In this document: one piece after another, positions 13,882-36,657 of the stretch
Position numbering within the stretch: position 1 is the stretch's first letter
How the letters are laid out: each line of letters starts with the position of its first letter
NCBI GenBank assembly: GCA_002843035.1
Contig: PHEV01000016.1
Location: 1 to 36,659 of the forward strand
Length of the DNA stretch: 36,659 nucleotides
DNA from: Actinobacteria bacterium HGW-Actinobacteria-5
GTDB lineage: Bacteria; Actinomycetota; Actinomycetes; Propionibacteriales; Propionibacteriaceae
Direction: 5' to 3'
Made by a program: the position numbers and the translations under genes
Notes under the pieces: generated by a model
Databases searched by the model: none
Told to the model about the DNA's origin: nothing
The model's input: the letters and a program-made list of their open reading frames with translations, nothing else

Positions 13882-15498
13882 TCAGCGACGGGTCAGGGTG
13901 AGGGTGAGCACCGGCGGATCGGCCGACTGCGCCAGAGTCGTCCCCGGCGACAAGGTGAACACGGTCGCGGTGGCCCAGCTCGAGCCCGGGGCCGAGTCGG
14001 CCCAGGCCGTGCGGTATCCCGCCCGGCTCGCCCGCACCTTCACCTGCCGGGACTCCCCGGTCCACAGCCCGGTGAGGGTGTACCTGCCGTCGGCTCTCGT
14101 GCGGGTCGAGGCGATCGCCTTGCGGGTGACGGCGTCGAAGACCGTCACTTTCGCCCGGGCCACCGGACGGGTCGCGCTGCGCACGGTTCCGGTGATGGTG
14201 GCCGCGGCGAAGACCCGGATCGTGCCCACGTCCACGGTCTCCTCGCTGGCAACCTGGTACACCTCGCCAGTGAGCCGGGTGGGTTGGTCCGGCGCCCAGC
14301 TGGTGGTGTCCCACGCCGGCACCGCTGCGCGGACCTGCACCGGTCCGGCCGGCAACCTTCCGATCCGGAACTCGCCGCGCGCGTCGGTGTCCGCCCGGCC
14401 CAGCACCGTTCCGGTGACGGTCGAGACAACGCTCACGTGCACGCCGCCCAGCGGGTCATCCCAGCCTGCCAGCGGGTCGTTGTTGAAACCCATCACCCGG
14501 CCGGTCAGCACCCCTTCGGGAACGAGCTCGAAGACCGCAGCGCCGTCAGACCAGTTCGGCCCCAGCACCTGACCGGCCCTGAGCGTCACCGGCCCCCACC
14601 ACGAGTCGAGGAAGCCCTCCGCCCGCACCCGCACCCGGATCCGTCCCGGCTGCAGCCCGTCGAGCTCGAACGATCCGTCCGGCGGCACCGTGACCGTCCG
14701 GATCGTACGACCCGTGCGGGCGTTGAACACCGTCACCTCCGAGGACTGCGAGATCGGGTCCATGTGCCAAAGGATGTAGCCGTAGACCGTCGCGGTGGAG
14801 TACACCCGGACCACACCGACGTCGGTCTCTGCGCCGGCCTGGACGTCAAACCTCACCACCTCCCCCGGCGGGCTGTTCGGGGCGTACGCCGCAGCGAGCC
14901 CGGCGGCCTTCACCCGCACGGTGACCTGCCCTGCGGGCAGCATCCCGACCCGGAACGTGCCCCGCCTGGTCGTCACCGCCGAGCCGAGCCGCTCACCGGT
15001 CGTGGCAGAGGTCACCACGACTCGCGCACCGGCGACCGGCCGCGCGTTCGGGGAGGACGGGTTCGCGAGCCGGACAACCGTGCCGGTGACCACCCCCTCG
15101 GGGGTGATGTCGAGATAGAGCCGCATCGGATCCCAGGACTGCTGCAGCGTCTCGCCAGGAGCGAGCGGGTACACCGTGGCGCTCGCCCTCGAGTGCGCAC
15201 CGTCGGCCCAACTCTCCAGATAGCCGGGCTTCGTCGCCCGGACCTGCACCGGGATGGCGGGCAGCCCCGTCACCATGTAGTAACCGGACCCGTCGGTCAT
15301 GACGGAACCAAGCTTCGCTCCGGTGTCGGCGCTGAACACCGTCACCCTGGCGAAACCGATCGGATCCATGCCCGAGAGCACCTGGCCCTGCACCGCCGCT
15401 GGCGCCCCTGCGGCTGCCGTTGCCGGGACCGCTCCCGGAAGACCGAGCACCAGGGCGAGCGTGCACACGAGCACAGCTACGATGCGGCTGGTACGCAT
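13882..15498 (-). CDS. Secreted protein with tandem carboxypeptidase-regulatory-like domains
   Basis: A 538-residue exported protein. MRTSRIVAVLVCTLALVLG forms a signal peptide with probable cleavage after ATA-A near residue 28. The mature part is a string of five or so beta-sandwich repeats of about 90-110 residues, each containing the signature V-x-G-x-V, A-x-V-x-V-F/S, T-D-x-x-G-x-F/Y, L-P/L-x-G-x-V-x-V-R (for example TVFSADTGAKLGS, TDGSGYYMVTGLP, TRADGRYTLTGLW). This matches CarboxypepD_reg/CNA-B-like domains. No sortase motif or C-terminal anchor is visible, so it is released or loosely bound. Start at 15498 is supported by GAAGAAGG upstream; the longer frame lacks a signal peptide. Adhesive or structural role is inferred. 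Confidence 0.8.
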   Translation of the reverse strand: MRTSRIVAVLVCTLALVLGLPGAVPATAAAGAPAAVQGQVLSGMDPIGFARVTVFSADTGAKLGSVMTDGSGYYMVTGLPAIPVQVRATKPGYLESWADGAHSRASATVYPLAPGETLQQSWDPMRLYLDITPEGVVTGTVVRLANPSSPNARPVAGARVVVTSATTGERLGSAVTTRRGTFRVGMLPAGQVTVRVKAAGLAAAYAPNSPPGEVVRFDVQAGAETDVGVVRVYSTATVYGYILWHMDPISQSSEVTVFNARTGRTIRTVTVPPDGSFELDGLQPGRIRVRVRAEGFLDSWWGPVTLRAGQVLGPNWSDGAAVFELVPEGVLTGRVMGFNNDPLAGWDDPLGGVHVSVVSTVTGTVLGRADTDARGEFRIGRLPAGPVQVRAAVPAWDTTSWAPDQPTRLTGEVYQVASEETVDVGTIRVFAAATITGTVRSATRPVARAKVTVFDAVTRKAIASTRTRADGRYTLTGLWTGESRQVKVRASRAGYRTAWADSAPGSSWATATVFTLSPGTTLAQSADPPVLTLTLTRR

Positions 15499-21918: not shown

Positions 21919-22686
21919 GTGCACCCGATCGCAGCGAACCTCGCCACCGTGCGGGCGAAGATCGACGCGGCCTGCACAGCGGCGGGACGCCCCTCCGGTT
22001 CGGTCCGGCTACTGCCGGTCAGCAAGACCCGCCCCGCGTCCGACGTCCTCGCCGCCCATGCCGCCGGATGCACCCAGTTCGGCGAGAACAAGGCCCAGGA
22101 GGCAGCCGCCAAGGCTCTCGAGCTCGCGGGCGTCCCCGGGCTGGAGTGGGTGATGATCGGCCACCTGCAGTCGAACAAGGCCAAGCTCGTCGCCTCCTTC
22201 GCCGCCGAATTCCAGGCGCTCGACTCACTCGGCGTGGCGGCCGAGCTCGATCGCCGGCTCCAGGCGGCCGGTCGGACCCTCGACGTGCTGGTGCAGGTGA
22301 ACTCCTCCGGTGAGGACTCCAAGTTCGGCCTGGCGCCCACAGCGGTCCCCGGCTTCGCCCGTGAGCTGACGGCCTTCGACGCGCTCCGCGTCCGGGGCCT
22401 GATGACGCTCGCGCTGGCGTCGCCCGACCCCGAGCAGGTTGCCGCCTGTTTCGAGCGCGTCGTCGACGTCCAGCGACGCCTGCGGGACACGGCCCTGCCC
22501 GGTCAGTCCTGGGACGAGCTCTCGATGGGCATGTCCGGCGACTTCGAGCTCGCCATCGCCCATGGCGCCACGGTCGTCCGGATCGGCACCGCGATCTTCG
22601 GCGCCCGATCCCAGGCCGACTACGGCCAGCGGGCGGCCAGGGAGATCACCGCGATGCCCGCGAGGATCGCGAATCCGAGGGCGTAG
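21919..22686 (+). CDS. YggS/PROSC-type PLP-binding protein
   Basis: Pyridoxal-phosphate homeostasis protein (alanine-racemase-like TIM barrel). The 255-residue chain has RLLPVSKTRP with the PLP-binding Lys in the family's VSKT motif, FGENKAQEA, MIGHLQSNKAK, VLVQVNSSGEDSKFGL, RGLMTLA, LSMGMSGDFELAIAHGATVVRIGTAIFG. GTG at 21919 is the start closest to the family's usual N-terminus; it has no clear ribosome site, so the mRNA may be leaderless. The C-terminus extends about 20 residues past the usual end and overlaps the convergent VWA gene by 67 bp. Confidence 0.92.
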   Translation: MHPIAANLATVRAKIDAACTAAGRPSGSVRLLPVSKTRPASDVLAAHAAGCTQFGENKAQEAAAKALELAGVPGLEWVMIGHLQSNKAKLVASFAAEFQALDSLGVAAELDRRLQAAGRTLDVLVQVNSSGEDSKFGLAPTAVPGFARELTAFDALRVRGLMTLALASPDPEQVAACFERVVDVQRRLRDTALPGQSWDELSMGMSGDFELAIAHGATVVRIGTAIFGARSQADYGQRAAREITAMPARIANPRA

Positions 22687-32189: not shown

Positions 32190-32912
32190 GTGGTCAGTGA
32201 ACTGAGCCGGATCATCTCCGGGAGTCGCAGGATCGTCTTCTTCGGCGGCGCGGGCGTTTCCACCGAGAGCGGGATCCCGGATTTCCGCTCGGGGGATGGA
32301 CTGTACAACCGCAGCACCGGCACCCGGTACGCGCCGGAGCAGGTGCTCAGCCACAGCTTCTTCGTGCGGCACACCGCCGAGTTCTACGACTACTACCGCG
32401 ACCACCTGCTGTATCCGGCCGCGTTGCCGAACCCGGCCCACCTCGCGCTCGCCCGGCTGGAGCAGGAGGGCCGGCTGACCGCCGTGGTGACGCAGAACAT
32501 CGACGGCCTGCACCAGGCGGCCGGATCGCGCACCGTCCTGGAGCTGCACGGCAGCGTGCACCGGAACAATTGCGTGCGCTGTGGCCGCGGCTACGGACTG
32601 GACGCGATCCTCGGCTCGAACGGCGTGCCCACCTGCGAGTGCGGCGGGGTGATCAAGCCCGACGTCGTGCTCTACGAGGAGGCGCTCGACCCGGCGGTCA
32701 TGGACGCCGCCGTCCAGCACCTCTCCCGCGCCGACACGCTGATCGTCGGCGGCACGTCCCTCGTGGTCTACCCGGCGGCGGGCCTCGTCCATGCCTTCGG
32801 CGGTGACCAACTGGTGCTGATCAACAAGGAGGCCACCGGCTACGACCACCTGGCCACCCTCGTCATCCACGAGCCGATCGGCGAGACCCTCGGCGCCGCC
32901 GTCCCTGCGTGA
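32190..32912 (+). CDS. Sir2-family NAD-dependent protein deacylase
   Basis: The 240-residue sirtuin removes acyl groups from lysine with NAD. Motifs: GGAGVSTESGIPDFRS (residues 19-34), TQNIDGLH, catalytic His in LELHGSV, a zinc ribbon CVRCG ... PTCECGG, and KPDVVLYEE, then GGTSLVVYPA. Tyr and Arg that mark desuccinylases are not obvious, though the HxF region (SFFVRHTAEFYDYYR) is class M-like. GTG at 32190. Divergent from the M20 gene and followed by a REP cluster. Confidence 0.93.
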   Translation: MVSELSRIISGSRRIVFFGGAGVSTESGIPDFRSGDGLYNRSTGTRYAPEQVLSHSFFVRHTAEFYDYYRDHLLYPAALPNPAHLALARLEQEGRLTAVVTQNIDGLHQAAGSRTVLELHGSVHRNNCVRCGRGYGLDAILGSNGVPTCECGGVIKPDVVLYEEALDPAVMDAAVQHLSRADTLIVGGTSLVVYPAAGLVHAFGGDQLVLINKEATGYDHLATLVIHEPIGETLGAAVPA

Positions 32913-32970: not shown

Positions 32971-33004
32971 TGGCCGATAAGGGGACGGTTCTCCTTTTCG
33001 GCCA
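32971..33004 (+). repeat. REP-like palindrome A1
   Basis: TGGCCGATAAGG ... CCTTTTCGGCCA, a 12-bp stem with one mismatch around a loop that carries ggacggttct. First of four related elements between the sirtuin and DUF389 genes. Confidence 0.8.
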
Positions 33005-33029
33005 ACCGCCGGAGGCCCTGGCCGACACG

Positions 33030-33063
33030 TGGCCGATAAGGGGACGGTTCTCCTTATCGGCCA
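33030..33063 (+). repeat. REP-like palindrome A2
   Basis: TGGCCGATAAGG pairs perfectly with CCTTATCGGCCA; same orientation and core (GGGGACGGTTC) as A1, differing from it in one base of 34. Confidence 0.85.
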
Positions 33064-33073
33064 GCCGCCAGAG

Positions 33074-33108
33074 GTGGACGGAAACGGAACCGTCCCCTTT
33101 TCGTCCAC
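33074..33108 (-). repeat. REP-like palindrome B1
   Basis: GTGGACG ... CGTCCAC stem with core GAACCGTCCCC, the reverse complement of the A-type core GGGGACGGTTC. Different arm sequence, opposite orientation. Confidence 0.8.
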
Positions 33109-33117
33109 CCACCCGAC

Positions 33118-33152
33118 GTGGACGGAAACGGAACCGTCCCCTTTTCGTTCAG
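33118..33152 (-). repeat. REP-like palindrome B2, reaching into the DUF389 gene
   Basis: Copies B1 through its first 31 bases, then the right arm ends GTTCAG instead of GTCCAC. The altered bases tca at 33149-33151 form the stop codon of the DUF389 gene. Confidence 0.75.
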
Positions 33153-34129
33153 CCGCGGCCGAGCATGTCCTTGCGGCGGCGCAGCCACATGTCGCGCTGC
33201 CACGGGTTCACCGGTAGCCGGCTGAGCAGCTTCTGTTGCACGGCCAGCGTGATCCAGCCGGCGATCACCATGGCCGAGAGGTTGACGCCGAGCTGGGCAG
33301 CGCTGCCGAGGATCTCGTCCGGGAGCCAGAACGCCAGGCCGAGCGCAAGGTTGCCCGCCGCCGGCACGGTGGTCACCGAGATGAACACCCCGGACAGCCC
33401 GCCCATCCGCCCCGACGTGAGCGAGAGGACGCCGGCGATCGCGGCCATCACCGCGACCGCGACGGACCAGCCGTCCGGCTGGTAGATGAACCGGGTGCCC
33501 GGCCGCGACCCGGCCAGGACCGCGGGATCCACGAGGCCAGCGAAGCGCAGGTAGAGACCCAGCGCGGTGGTCACACCGATGGCCACCACGAATCCGACCA
33601 GGAGCGTGCGCAGGGCGAGGCCGAACAACGCCCGTCGGCGTAACACGAGTGCCAGCCCCAGCGCGGCGATCGGGCCGAACTCGGGCCCGAGCACCATCGC
33701 ACCGATCACCAGCACCTGCGAGTCGAGCACGATGGCGCTGGCCGCGATCAGCGTGGCCAGCAGCATGAAGATCAGGTAGGTGCCGTTCAGCTCGGAATCC
33801 GCGTACGCACGCGCGCCGACCTCGGGCCAGACCACGGCGTCCGCGCCACTGCCGGGCGCGGCGACCTCCGCGTCCAGCCCCGCCTTCGACAGCCAGGTGG
33901 TCACCCCTTCGATGTGCATGCTGCCCTGCTGGGCCACACCGATCGCGCGCAGCCGGGTGATCACGGCGTTCGCGTGCTCGCGGGCGATGTCAGCGAAGAC
34001 CAGGTCGCCACGCGGCTCGATGGACGCGCCGCGCACGACGGCGAGGCTGCTCACCGTCGGCTCGGTGGACAAGACGATCACGACGTCCTCGGTGAGGTCC
34101 GAGGGAACAGCGAGCCTCAGCTGGAGCAT
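33149..34129 (-). CDS. DUF389 family membrane protein
   Basis: The 326-residue product has an N-terminal ACT-like cytoplasmic domain (about 1-90: LRLAVPSDLTEDVVIVLS, HANAVITRLRAIGV) and a membrane part with about six helices, including the family signature IAASAIVLDSQVLVIGAMVLGPEFGP (positions about 127-152) and LSGVFISVTTVPAAGNLALG. DUF389 proteins are of unknown function, suggested to be transporters. The ATG at 34129 is chosen for the compact start MLQLRLAVP; longer forms overlap the divergent ligD. The stop codon is supplied by a REP-like element. Confidence 0.85.
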   Translation of the reverse strand: MLQLRLAVPSDLTEDVVIVLSTEPTVSSLAVVRGASIEPRGDLVFADIAREHANAVITRLRAIGVAQQGSMHIEGVTTWLSKAGLDAEVAAPGSGADAVVWPEVGARAYADSELNGTYLIFMLLATLIAASAIVLDSQVLVIGAMVLGPEFGPIAALGLALVLRRRALFGLALRTLLVGFVVAIGVTTALGLYLRFAGLVDPAVLAGSRPGTRFIYQPDGWSVAVAVMAAIAGVLSLTSGRMGGLSGVFISVTTVPAAGNLALGLAFWLPDEILGSAAQLGVNLSAMVIAGWITLAVQQKLLSRLPVNPWQRDMWLRRRKDMLGRG

Positions 34130-34257
34130 GCTCAATGGTCGCGGTACCGGATTCGCCTGTCGATAGCCGCACCGTCGACCGCCGGCCTTCGCGCGCACCC
34201 ACGAACCCTGGACCGGAGGGCTGGCCCTCTGCGGTGCGCTCCGGCAGGATGGCCGCC

Positions 34258-36657
34258 ATGGCAGCCGTGGGCGGCCAGCAGGTGACCATGGACGGGCACA
34301 CGCTGGTCCTGACCAACCTCGACAAGGTGCTCTACCCTGCCACCGGCACCACGAAGGGCGAGGTGATCGCCTACTACGCCGAGATCGGCGCCGTTCTCCT
34401 GCCGCACCTTCGCCAGCGTCCGATCACCCGCAAACGGTGGCCGAACGGCGTTGGCGAGGATGGCCACCACCCCGGGGTGTTCTTCGCCAAGAACCTGCCC
34501 AAGGGGACGCCGGAGTGGGTTCGGCGCTACACCATCGAGCACTCGGAGGGCAGCAACGACTACCCGGTCGCCGACGATGTGGCGACCCTGGTGTGGATGG
34601 CGCAACTGGCCGCGCTGGAGCTGCATGTGCCGCAGTGGCGGTTCGCCGGGGACGGCACTCCCCTGCCGCCCGACCGGCTCGTCCTCGACCTCGACCCCGG
34701 CGAGGGCGTGAGCCTTGCCCAGTGCGCAGAGGTCGCGGGCTGGGTGCGCGAGGTGCTGGACGGCGCCGGGCTGACCGCCTACCCGGTGACCAGCGGCAGC
34801 AAGGGGATCCACCTCTACGCCCACCTGGACGGATCCCTCACCACCGGGGACGCCTCCAGCCTCGCCCGCGAGCTCGCCGAGGCACTGCAGGCCGCGCATC
34901 CCGACCGGGTGACCGCCGTGATGCGCCGTGCTGACCGGGCCGGAAAGGTCTTCATCGACTGGAGCCAGAACAACGGCAGCAAGACCACGATCGCCCCTTA
35001 CTCGCTGCGCGGACGCGCCCGTCCGTGGGTGGCGGCACCGCGTACCTGGGACGAACTGTCCGACCCCGCCCTGCGGCACCTCGAGCTCGACGAGGTTCTC
35101 GTACGCCTCGCCGCGTCGGGCGACCTGCTCGCCGGGCTGTTGTCGCCGGAAGAGGTCTCGGCGACCCCGTCCGACCGGCTTGCCACCTACCGCGGCATGC
35201 GCGACCCGGCGAAGACCCCTGAGCCGGTGCCCGCGGGCGTCCCGGCCGCCTCCGACGGACGCTCGTTCGTGATCCAGGAGCACCATGCGCGGCGCCTCCA
35301 CTACGACGTCCGGCTCGAGCATGACGGTGTGCTGGTGAGCTGGGCGGTGCCGAAGGGCCCACCCACGGACCCGAGGCAGAACCACCTCGCGGTGCCGACC
35401 GAGGACCATCCGCTGGAGTACGGCTCGTTCGAGGGAACGATCCCGAGGGGCGAGTACGGCGGTGGCACCGTGCGAATCTGGGACGCCGGCAGCTACGAGC
35501 TGGAGAAGTGGCGCGACGGAGAAGTGATCGCCACCCTGCACGGGCGCCCCGACGGGGGCCTGGGCGGACAACCAGCGAAGTTCGCCCTCATCCGCACCGG
35601 CAAGGACTGGCTGATGCACCGGATGGGGAGCTCGGCGAGCCCTGCGGACCGTGTGGCCGAGCCGGTTCGGTCCACCACGTCGACACCCTCGGCCAGCGCG
35701 GTGATCGAACCCATGCTGGCCACGCTGGCCACTCCGGCGATGCTGGGCGAGGAGGACGACTGGGCGTTCGAGATGAAGTGGGACGGCGTGCGGATCATCG
35801 TCGAGCTCGACCACGGCACGGTGCGCCTGCTGAGTCGCCGTGGCCGCGACGAGACCGCCCGGTACCCCGACCTGATCGGCGACCTCTCCGGCCTGCCGGC
35901 AGAGCAAGCCGTCCTGGACGGCGAGATCGTCGTTCTCGATTCCGGCGGCGCCCCGAACTTCGGGCTGCTGCAGCCCCGGATCAACCTCACCCGCCCCGGC
36001 GACGTCGCGAAGGCGGCCCAGGCCGCGCCGGCGCAGCTGATGCTGTTCGACCTGCTCAGCCTCAACGGCGAGTCGCTGCTGACCCAGCCCTACGAGACGC
36101 GCCGTGAACTGCTGGAGCGCCTCGGCCCGCAGGACAGCGGCTCCCGCGTCCACGTGCCGGCGGGCTTCGACGGCGATCTGGCGGCGGCGCTGGACGCGAG
36201 CCTCGCCTTCCGGCTGGAGGGCGTCGTCGCCAAGCGCAGGGGGTCGATCTACGAGCCCGGGCGCCGCGCACCGACCTGGCTGAAGATCAAGCACCGCAAG
36301 GCCCAGGCCGTGGTGATCGGAGGGTGGCGTCCGGGCAAGGGCAACCGTCAGGGCACGGTGGGCGCGTTGCTGCTGGGCATCCCGGACGAGGGCGGGCTCG
36401 CCTACGTCGGCCGGGTGGGTTCCGGGTTCACCGACGCGGGGCTCGCCGAGGCCCAGCGTCTGCTCGACCCGCTCGCGTCCGCCACGAACCCGTTGCGCGA
36501 CGTCCCTCGCGACGACGCGAAGGACGCGCACTGGGTGCAGCCGAGGCTGGTGGGCGAGGTGTACTACACCGAGCTCACCGGCCCGGGACGCCTGCGTTCC
36601 CCGGTGTGGCGGGGCTGGCGTCCCGACCTCGATCCGGCGGACGTCGGCTGGGAGTAG
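34258..36657 (+). CDS. ligD: LigD: polymerase-phosphoesterase-ligase for end joining
   Basis: Multifunctional enzyme of bacterial non-homologous end joining. Domain order is Pol-PE-Lig, the mycobacterial arrangement: polymerase/primase at about 10-275 (LTNLDKVLYPATG, LVLDLDPGEG with catalytic Asp pair, TSGSKGIHLYA, FIDWSQNN), 3'-phosphoesterase from about 335-460 (FVIQEHHARRLHYDVRLE, PLEYGSFEGTIPRGEYGGG), ATP-dependent ligase to the end with AMP-accepting Lys507 in FEMKWDGVR, then DGEIVVLD and EGVVAKR, and the OB-fold ending. The 799-residue count uses ATG 34258 (AGGA eight bases upstream); ATG 34249, GTG 34234 or ATG 34135 are in-frame alternatives. The stop is two bases from the window edge. 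Ku is not in the window. Confidence 0.95.
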   Translation: MAAVGGQQVTMDGHTLVLTNLDKVLYPATGTTKGEVIAYYAEIGAVLLPHLRQRPITRKRWPNGVGEDGHHPGVFFAKNLPKGTPEWVRRYTIEHSEGSNDYPVADDVATLVWMAQLAALELHVPQWRFAGDGTPLPPDRLVLDLDPGEGVSLAQCAEVAGWVREVLDGAGLTAYPVTSGSKGIHLYAHLDGSLTTGDASSLARELAEALQAAHPDRVTAVMRRADRAGKVFIDWSQNNGSKTTIAPYSLRGRARPWVAAPRTWDELSDPALRHLELDEVLVRLAASGDLLAGLLSPEEVSATPSDRLATYRGMRDPAKTPEPVPAGVPAASDGRSFVIQEHHARRLHYDVRLEHDGVLVSWAVPKGPPTDPRQNHLAVPTEDHPLEYGSFEGTIPRGEYGGGTVRIWDAGSYELEKWRDGEVIATLHGRPDGGLGGQPAKFALIRTGKDWLMHRMGSSASPADRVAEPVRSTTSTPSASAVIEPMLATLATPAMLGEEDDWAFEMKWDGVRIIVELDHGTVRLLSRRGRDETARYPDLIGDLSGLPAEQAVLDGEIVVLDSGGAPNFGLLQPRINLTRPGDVAKAAQAAPAQLMLFDLLSLNGESLLTQPYETRRELLERLGPQDSGSRVHVPAGFDGDLAAALDASLAFRLEGVVAKRRGSIYEPGRRAPTWLKIKHRKAQAVVIGGWRPGKGNRQGTVGALLLGIPDEGGLAYVGRVGSGFTDAGLAEAQRLLDPLASATNPLRDVPRDDAKDAHWVQPRLVGEVYYTELTGPGRLRSPVWRGWRPDLDPADVGWE

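Follow-up and report, generated by a model that had tools for sequence, protein, structure and literature searches.

The window analysed here is a stretch of 36,659 nucleotides (contig C262) of an actinobacterial genome that amounts to 3.84 Mb in 295 contigs and is 98.9% complete. In the gap between its convergent SIR2 and DUF389 genes, at 32971-33152, lie four short palindrome-like sequences, which raise the question of what kind of element they are and what placed them there. The preliminary description likened them to REP/BIME elements. Of the replicating sequence families that bacterial genomes maintain over time, REP/RAYT systems are the best known. We consider it highly probable that the cluster represents a single site within a dispersed set of REP/REPIN-like hairpins that are moved by class-matched Y1 HuH transposases.

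The cluster and its flanking genes

The cluster is bordered by a SIR2 family gene (32190-32912, + strand; Pfam PF02146, E 4e-49) and a convergent gene for a DUF389 membrane protein (33149-34198, - strand; Pfam PF04087, E 4e-27). A window scan places four exact copies of the core GGGGACGGTTC at 32981 and 33040 on the + strand and at 33087 and 33131 on the - strand (layout ++--), and the core is thus inverted between an A pair and a B pair, as had been claimed. With up to one mismatch allowed, the window holds 6 matches as compared to a mean of 1.70 in shuffled sequences, 6 being reached in 1 of 100 shuffles. A repeat search found direct and inverted repeat pairs inside 32971-33152, and the Rfam matches in the cluster region were all far below gathering scores.

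The four units differ in the quality of their hairpins. A1 (32971-33004, + strand) is a class I hairpin, TGGCCGATAA-GGGGACGGTTC-TCCTTTTCGGCCA, with DNA folding z-scores of -4.8 and -4.5 for the two strands, and A2 (33030-33063, + strand) is a class I hairpin with the same core and a perfect lower stem (z of -7.5 and -6.1). B1 (33074-33108, - strand) is of a class I subtype in which the 7-base arms, GTGGACG and CGTCCAC, match and the inner part is imperfect (z of -1.8 and -1.9). B2 (33118-33152, - strand), the end of which runs into the DUF389 stop codon, carries the core between mismatched arms, GTGGACG versus CGTTCAG (z of -0.8 and -0.4). Thus, A1 and A2 are strong hairpins, B1 is imperfect, and B2 alone is hardly a palindrome, so the earlier account of four palindromes in two opposite pairs is exact for the cores and their layout and holds only in part for the palindromes of the B pair. 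Likewise, the A and B arms do differ, but as TGGCCG and TGGACG subtypes of class I rather than as separate families; two quite different arm classes (II and III) occur elsewhere in the genome. By their arm patterns the window copies are class I, the 5' arm of B2 being class-III-like. On the + strand, B1 contains a terminator-like stem with a T run (33076-33095) and B2 a terminator-like stem (33120-33139); such stems with a T run number 2 in B1 and B2, compared with 0.2 in shuffles.

A reading of B1 and B2 as a "CGTC-tagged repeat" was dropped, since their CGTC sits within the stem and forms no tag. A LigD-type gene (primase-polymerase, phosphoesterase, and ATP-dependent ligase; window 34135-36657) adjoins the DUF389 gene. 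Farther away, a 27-nt tandem repeat at approximately 505-605 of the window (GGGGACGGCTCGGCGGCTGCTACCACC, - strand) bears a chance likeness to the core; its period equals whole codons, so it may be coding.

A genome-wide repeat family with three arm classes

The core is clearly not confined to this locus. GGGGACGGTTC occurs 344 times in the 3.84-Mb genome, 179 times on the + strand and 165 times on the - strand, compared with a single copy of the reversed control (0 on the + strand, 1 on the - strand), and palindromic copies are found elsewhere. We read 115 of the 344 copies, namely the first 100 listed and 15 at three transposase loci and in the window, and these form 52 clusters. The unit consists of a constant GGGGACGGTTC core near the hairpin tip and a variable lower stem. 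Hand-written patterns define the arm classes: 43 of the 115 copies belong to class I (TGGMCGAWAA-core-TCCTTTTCGKCCA), 20 to class II (GGACCGRAT-core-CGAACYCGGTCC), and 48 to class III (GAACGG, core, CCGTTCA), with 4 left unclassed. The 5' arm is unrecognised in 33 of the 48 class III copies, and its absence from many of them was counted against the transposase model. A single class is present in 33 of the 36 multi-copy clusters, as compared to a mean of 9.7 and a maximum of 21 after shuffling.

Among the copies read, neighbours at most 200 nt apart make up 63 pairs, of which 22 are +-, 18 --, 14 ++, and 9 -+; the commonest type is therefore the +- doublet, with a spacing of 37-114 nt. According to a simple gene caller that misplaced the strand of the DUF389 gene, so that the counts are approximate, 104 of the 115 copies lie outside predicted ORFs (non-ORF sequence is 22% of that read), and the gaps around such copies, where both neighbours were called, are tandem in 52 cases, convergent in 36, and divergent in 3. 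A strand preference by folding energy is unsupported, the GGGGAC strand being the stabler one in 27 of 43 class I, 7 of 20 class II, and 29 of 47 class III copies.

In being high in copy number, palindromic, extragenic, and arranged in inverted pairs and arrays, the family resembles REP/BIME elements, and to this extent the first likeness was apt. It does not reach the canonical foot: GTAG was found within 20 nt 5' of the core in none of the 115 copies, GT[AG]G occurs in the outer part of 14 of the 115, and the base preceding the class I stem varies (C 14, G 10, T 4, and A 4 among 32 scored). We rejected a canonical GTAG-type REP/BIME because there is no GT[AG]G foot, the constant bases lie near the tip, and the transposase looks like the TIRYT/subclass 2.1 type.

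Three transposases, each flanked by one class

The genome contains three Y1_Tnp genes, each over the PF01797 cut-off, whose products (P0001, P0002, and P0003) are 55-61% identical in pairwise comparisons. P0001, on contig C225, is flanked by class I copies, P0002 by class II copies, and P0003 by class III copies. In all three cases the upstream copies are on the + strand and the downstream copies on the - strand, forming inverted brackets, and the class of the window copies is that found at P0001. These RAYT-type Y1 HuH genes, bracketed by the same core, agree with the early suggestion that a REP-associated tyrosine transposase spreads the repeats, and we infer that they move them.

Residues H60, H62, Y119, and N123 are invariant across 50 aligned relatives; the HuH and Y-x3-N residues of RAYTs are thus present, the role of the Tyr and Asn being taken from the literature. 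The three proteins score 66.4-73.6 bits with NCBIfam REP_Tyr_transpos, below its cut-off of 80. A structural model of the close relative L056 (mean pLDDT of 88.7) places extra helices at residues 188-248, past the Y1 core. Its nearest fold is that of E. coli TnpAREP in complex with a REP hairpin (4er8; Z of 17.9 over 155 residues, 2.5 A), followed by IS200/IS605 enzymes, in a comparison that hardly bears on the C-terminal part. A phmmer search of the PDB with one of the three proteins gave no match, and a 50-member profile retrieved 4er8 with an E of 1.4e-7. In whole-protein searches, HTH_23 appears in 6 and HTH_28 in 5 of the 50 relatives, and in our three proteins only below curated cut-offs. 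As modelled, the transposases are RAYT-type enzymes with a predicted C-terminal helical extension.

Co-occurrence of repeats and transposase

Within the genus (30 genomes), the 14 genomes with a transposase match hold 31-344 copies of the core (median 143), and the 16 without a match hold 0-82 (median 3.5). Two of these 14 genomes (G001 and G011) have an internal stop in their sole match, which was counted against the model. Across 198 genomes of the family, all 18 with a match over most of the transposase have at least 25 copies, as do 6 of the 180 others; the genus and family counts take genomes as independent and ignore kinship. Two family genomes in which the match is limited to the C-terminal part (G077 and G104) were counted as lacking the transposase. 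The six copy-rich genomes with no transposase among the scored candidates (G007, G017, G018, G140, G142, and G143; 34-330 copies) were counted against the transposase model, in a search that scored at most 13 candidates per genome and may have missed genes. In G140, G142, and G143, with 75, 281, and 330 copies, the gene may have been lost or missed, or another mover may be at work. Of 396 genomes sampled evenly across the phylum, only the source genome exceeds 19 copies.

Core and transposase in other groups

We scanned genome contigs with a profile built from the transposase alignment and took the best 80 loci. Among the matches listed, relatives include Propionicimonas and Micropruina MAGs; Propionicimonas is assigned to Propionibacteriales by NCBI. 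We scored flanks of 150 nt or more for the 6-mer GGGGAC alone, with four duplicate family rows omitted. Among the matches listed, GGGGAC points inward on both sides at 26 of 28 distinct family loci (opposite orientation, 4 of 28). At the 71 loci of other groups it points inward on both sides at 28 and on at least one side at 44, compared with 5 loci in the opposite orientation on both sides (matches listed). Longer motifs behave similarly among the matches listed: of 76 loci, GGGACGGT is correctly placed on both sides at 22 (opposite, 4), GGGACGTT at 10 (opposite, 0), and GGGACAG at 8 (opposite, 2), with 0 in resampled flanks for each. Bacillota and Bacteroidota, too, have related genes bordered by the GGGGACGGTTC core.

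The repeats themselves are abundant in many of these genomes. Among the matches listed, 50 genomes were counted, 3 of these 50 being from the window's family; GGGGACGGTTC has at least 20 copies in 26 of the 50 and at least 100 in 8, with reversed controls summing to 0-5 across the 50 genomes; examples are a Clostridiales MAG of 1.9 Mb (337 copies), a Bacteroidales MAG (206), and Halobacillus locisalis (103). The remaining 24 genomes have fewer than 20 copies and include four Coriobacteriia with 0-3. The transposase genes of these four lack two-sided flanks of GGGACGGT, GGGACGTT, and GGGACAG, and two transposase loci of genome G187 lack the GGGGAC motif; both results were counted against the model. 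The Coriobacteriia transposase relatives without two-sided GGGGAC flanks are L098, L116, L124, L130, and L131. The transposases at four further loci (L074, L104, L112, and L134) have, in place of GGGGAC, palindromes resembling GGGGTCAGACCC or GTGTCAGACAC at their flanks, which perhaps represent a sister core family.

The core variant tracks the transposase flank across groups. Of the 50 genomes, 31 have GG or GT flanks on both sides; among these, GGGGACGGTTC outnumbers GGGGACGTTTC in 21 of 22 GG-flanked genomes, and GGGGACGTTTC outnumbers GGGGACGGTTC in 5 of 9 GT-flanked genomes (effect of the flank on genome-wide shares, p = 4e-5). A prediction set beforehand, that high numbers of GGGGACAGTCC would be confined to G002, G012, and G014, proved half right and was counted against the model: these genomes hold 47, 5, and 150 copies, the unpredicted G011, G020, and G016 hold 49, 38, and 33, the other 24 genomes hold 0-5, and the source genome holds 0. 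In our own tree of 91 relatives, the core ending changed at least 13 to 17 times (a raw count). At 54 transposase loci the mean best stem between the arms of a unit is 6.41, compared with 4.42 when arms are swapped between loci (maximum 4.80 in 200 swaps). Since the arms are complementary above this baseline, the hairpins have been kept while their sequence changed.

The same gaps in related genomes

Both window flanks are adjacent in three relatives, and in each the SIR2/DUF389 gap differs from that in the window: G013 has no such core, G016 has only GGGGACGC, and G005 has one core without matching arms. Contig C20 of the source genome bears six further clusters, five of which are comparable with collinear G005, the cluster at 1177 lacking a flank. 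For these five, the source genome and G005 have, respectively, class I versus a class II pair, class III versus GGGGACAGGTA copies, class III versus class II, class I versus none, and class III versus a GGGGACAGGTA pair. Thus, the class is kept at 0 of 6 comparable clusters (the window and five on C20) between two species at roughly 80-88% identity. An empty site in the window (22611-22617, unstranded) corresponds to a collinear place in G005 that has three class II copies.

The occupants of these gaps can be related to resident transposases. GGGGACAGGTA is the variant adjoining one of the two G005 transposases, and at one C20 gap G019 carries GGGGACGGGTC, the variant adjoining one of its own transposases. 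The class II transposases of the source species and G005 show 74% identity, form a fully supported group in the tree of 91 relatives, and have class-II-type arms in common. Counted against the model is G014, which has class-II-like copies at one C20 gap, yet the two transposases found in it lack class II flanks.

Relation to known systems

The closest known system is TIRYT/TIRtron, which probably corresponds to TnpAREP subclass 2.1. In Di Nocera et al. 2013 (PMC3733652), TIRYTs were named with GGGGWSAS inverted repeats, some families of which are dispersed, as dimers or clusters. Both systems combine a Y1 transposase bearing a C-terminal extension with GGGG-W-S inverted repeats on both sides of the gene. 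The present family differs in its up to 344 copies, its occurrence in Actinomycetota, and its longer core, GGGGACGGTTC; GGGGACAG forms fit GGGGWSAS, whereas the commoner GGGGACGG is off at one base. It is, then, a high-copy form of a TIRYT-like system with a longer core, in Actinomycetota. Quentin et al. 2018 (PMC6006769) assigned 291 of 292 RAYT group 1 sequences (Bertels 2017) to subclass 2.1 and detected no REP-like sequences for it, in contrast to the hundreds of repeats found here in a high-GC phylum.

The REPIN-RAYT system of Pseudomonas fluorescens SBW25 (PMC3116915) is alike in having three repeat groups beside three RAYT genes and inverted, mostly intergenic doublets. It differs in that here the constant bases lie near the tip and not at the foot, and the stems diverge from class to class around an unchanging core that is common across phyla. 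E. coli TnpAREP (PMC8266576) resembles the present enzymes in fold (its complex with REP, 4er8, being the best match) and in its HuH and Tyr residues, and an imperfect hairpin is the presumed substrate in both. Unlike it, the present system has no GTAG foot, its proteins carry extra C-terminal helices, and they fall short of the NCBIfam profile (66-74 bits against 80).

No repeat paper with the GGGGACGGTTC string was found in the literature searched, and a query for RAYT/REP with Actinobacteria returned no relevant actinobacterial paper; the search was less than the full literature, and within it the remark that such elements are little described in high-GC Actinobacteria fits. The tip sequence is the same here as in distant phyla, and the three stem classes, the gap differences between sister species, and the group variants make recognition and turnover directly testable.

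Proposed mechanism and alternatives

In the mechanism we favour, each transposase would bind its own hairpin class as single-stranded DNA, its HuH/tyrosine site would cleave the hairpin, and inverted pairs would be moved or copied in trans into intergenic gaps. Transposition through single-stranded DNA is most likely by likeness to REPIN-RAYT, for which such movement is argued in PMC3116915, and to TnpAREP, for which PMC8266576 reports cleavage in vitro. The window cluster would have been assembled by P0001, the transposase of class I, after the split from G005, G013, and G016. Because B1 and B2 look like + strand terminators, a later terminator role is possible, and the settled hairpins may act as putative terminators for the convergent SIR2 and DUF389 genes.

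That the hairpins are nothing but bidirectional terminators, alike since the terminators of this genome have a common form, would suit the convergent position of the cluster, the T-run stems of B1 and B2, and the scarcity of divergent gaps as judged by the crude gene caller. Termination, however, needs no 11-base core repeated 344 times and present in other phyla; moreover, the arm classes match the transposase flanks, and in two relatives the corresponding convergent gap is free of such hairpins. We thus regard this explanation as very unlikely. The repeats might instead be the termini of conventional insertion sequences or MITEs, the short pairs being deletion derivatives, as the IS-like bracketing of the transposase genes and the prevalence of +- doublets would suggest. 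Here the boundary with the RAYT reading is thin, but at 55-61% identity none of the three transposases is a recent copy of another, short units exceed genes in number, and the Y-x3-N residues and closeness to TnpAREP fit RAYTs better, which makes an IS or MITE origin improbable. Finally, to the notion that the copies are static relics of an old spread by any means, with the transposase link reflecting shared ancestry, we attach hardly any credence: the six copy-rich family genomes without a found transposase and the kinship among genomes that the tests take as independent speak for it, yet class content differs at all 6 comparable clusters of two species and the core variant follows the transposase flank across groups.

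Returning to movement by class-matched transposases, the reoccupied gaps may mean either that insertions are tolerated in only a few places or that older copies are displaced by newer ones by way of the common tip. An extension of the latter kind, which we hold to be doubtful, is that a single old repeat-transposase lineage, present in Actinomycetota, Bacillota, and Bacteroidota, recognises a tip that hardly varies (GGGGAC followed by some five bases), with stems diverging into one class per transposase. Since the tip is common to all classes, resident copies would be open to cutting by an incoming transposase, which might overwrite them, and the same intergenic gaps would come to carry the class of the transposase that happens to be there. 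Other hairpins also occur in such places: the G019 gap (L272) that matches G000 C20:8428-8469 contains a long hairpin of an unrelated kind, GAAGCTGCCGAA / TTCGGCAGCTTC, and in G013 another of the gaps (14287-14411) has an unrelated hairpin, so these gaps may attract hairpins of several kinds.
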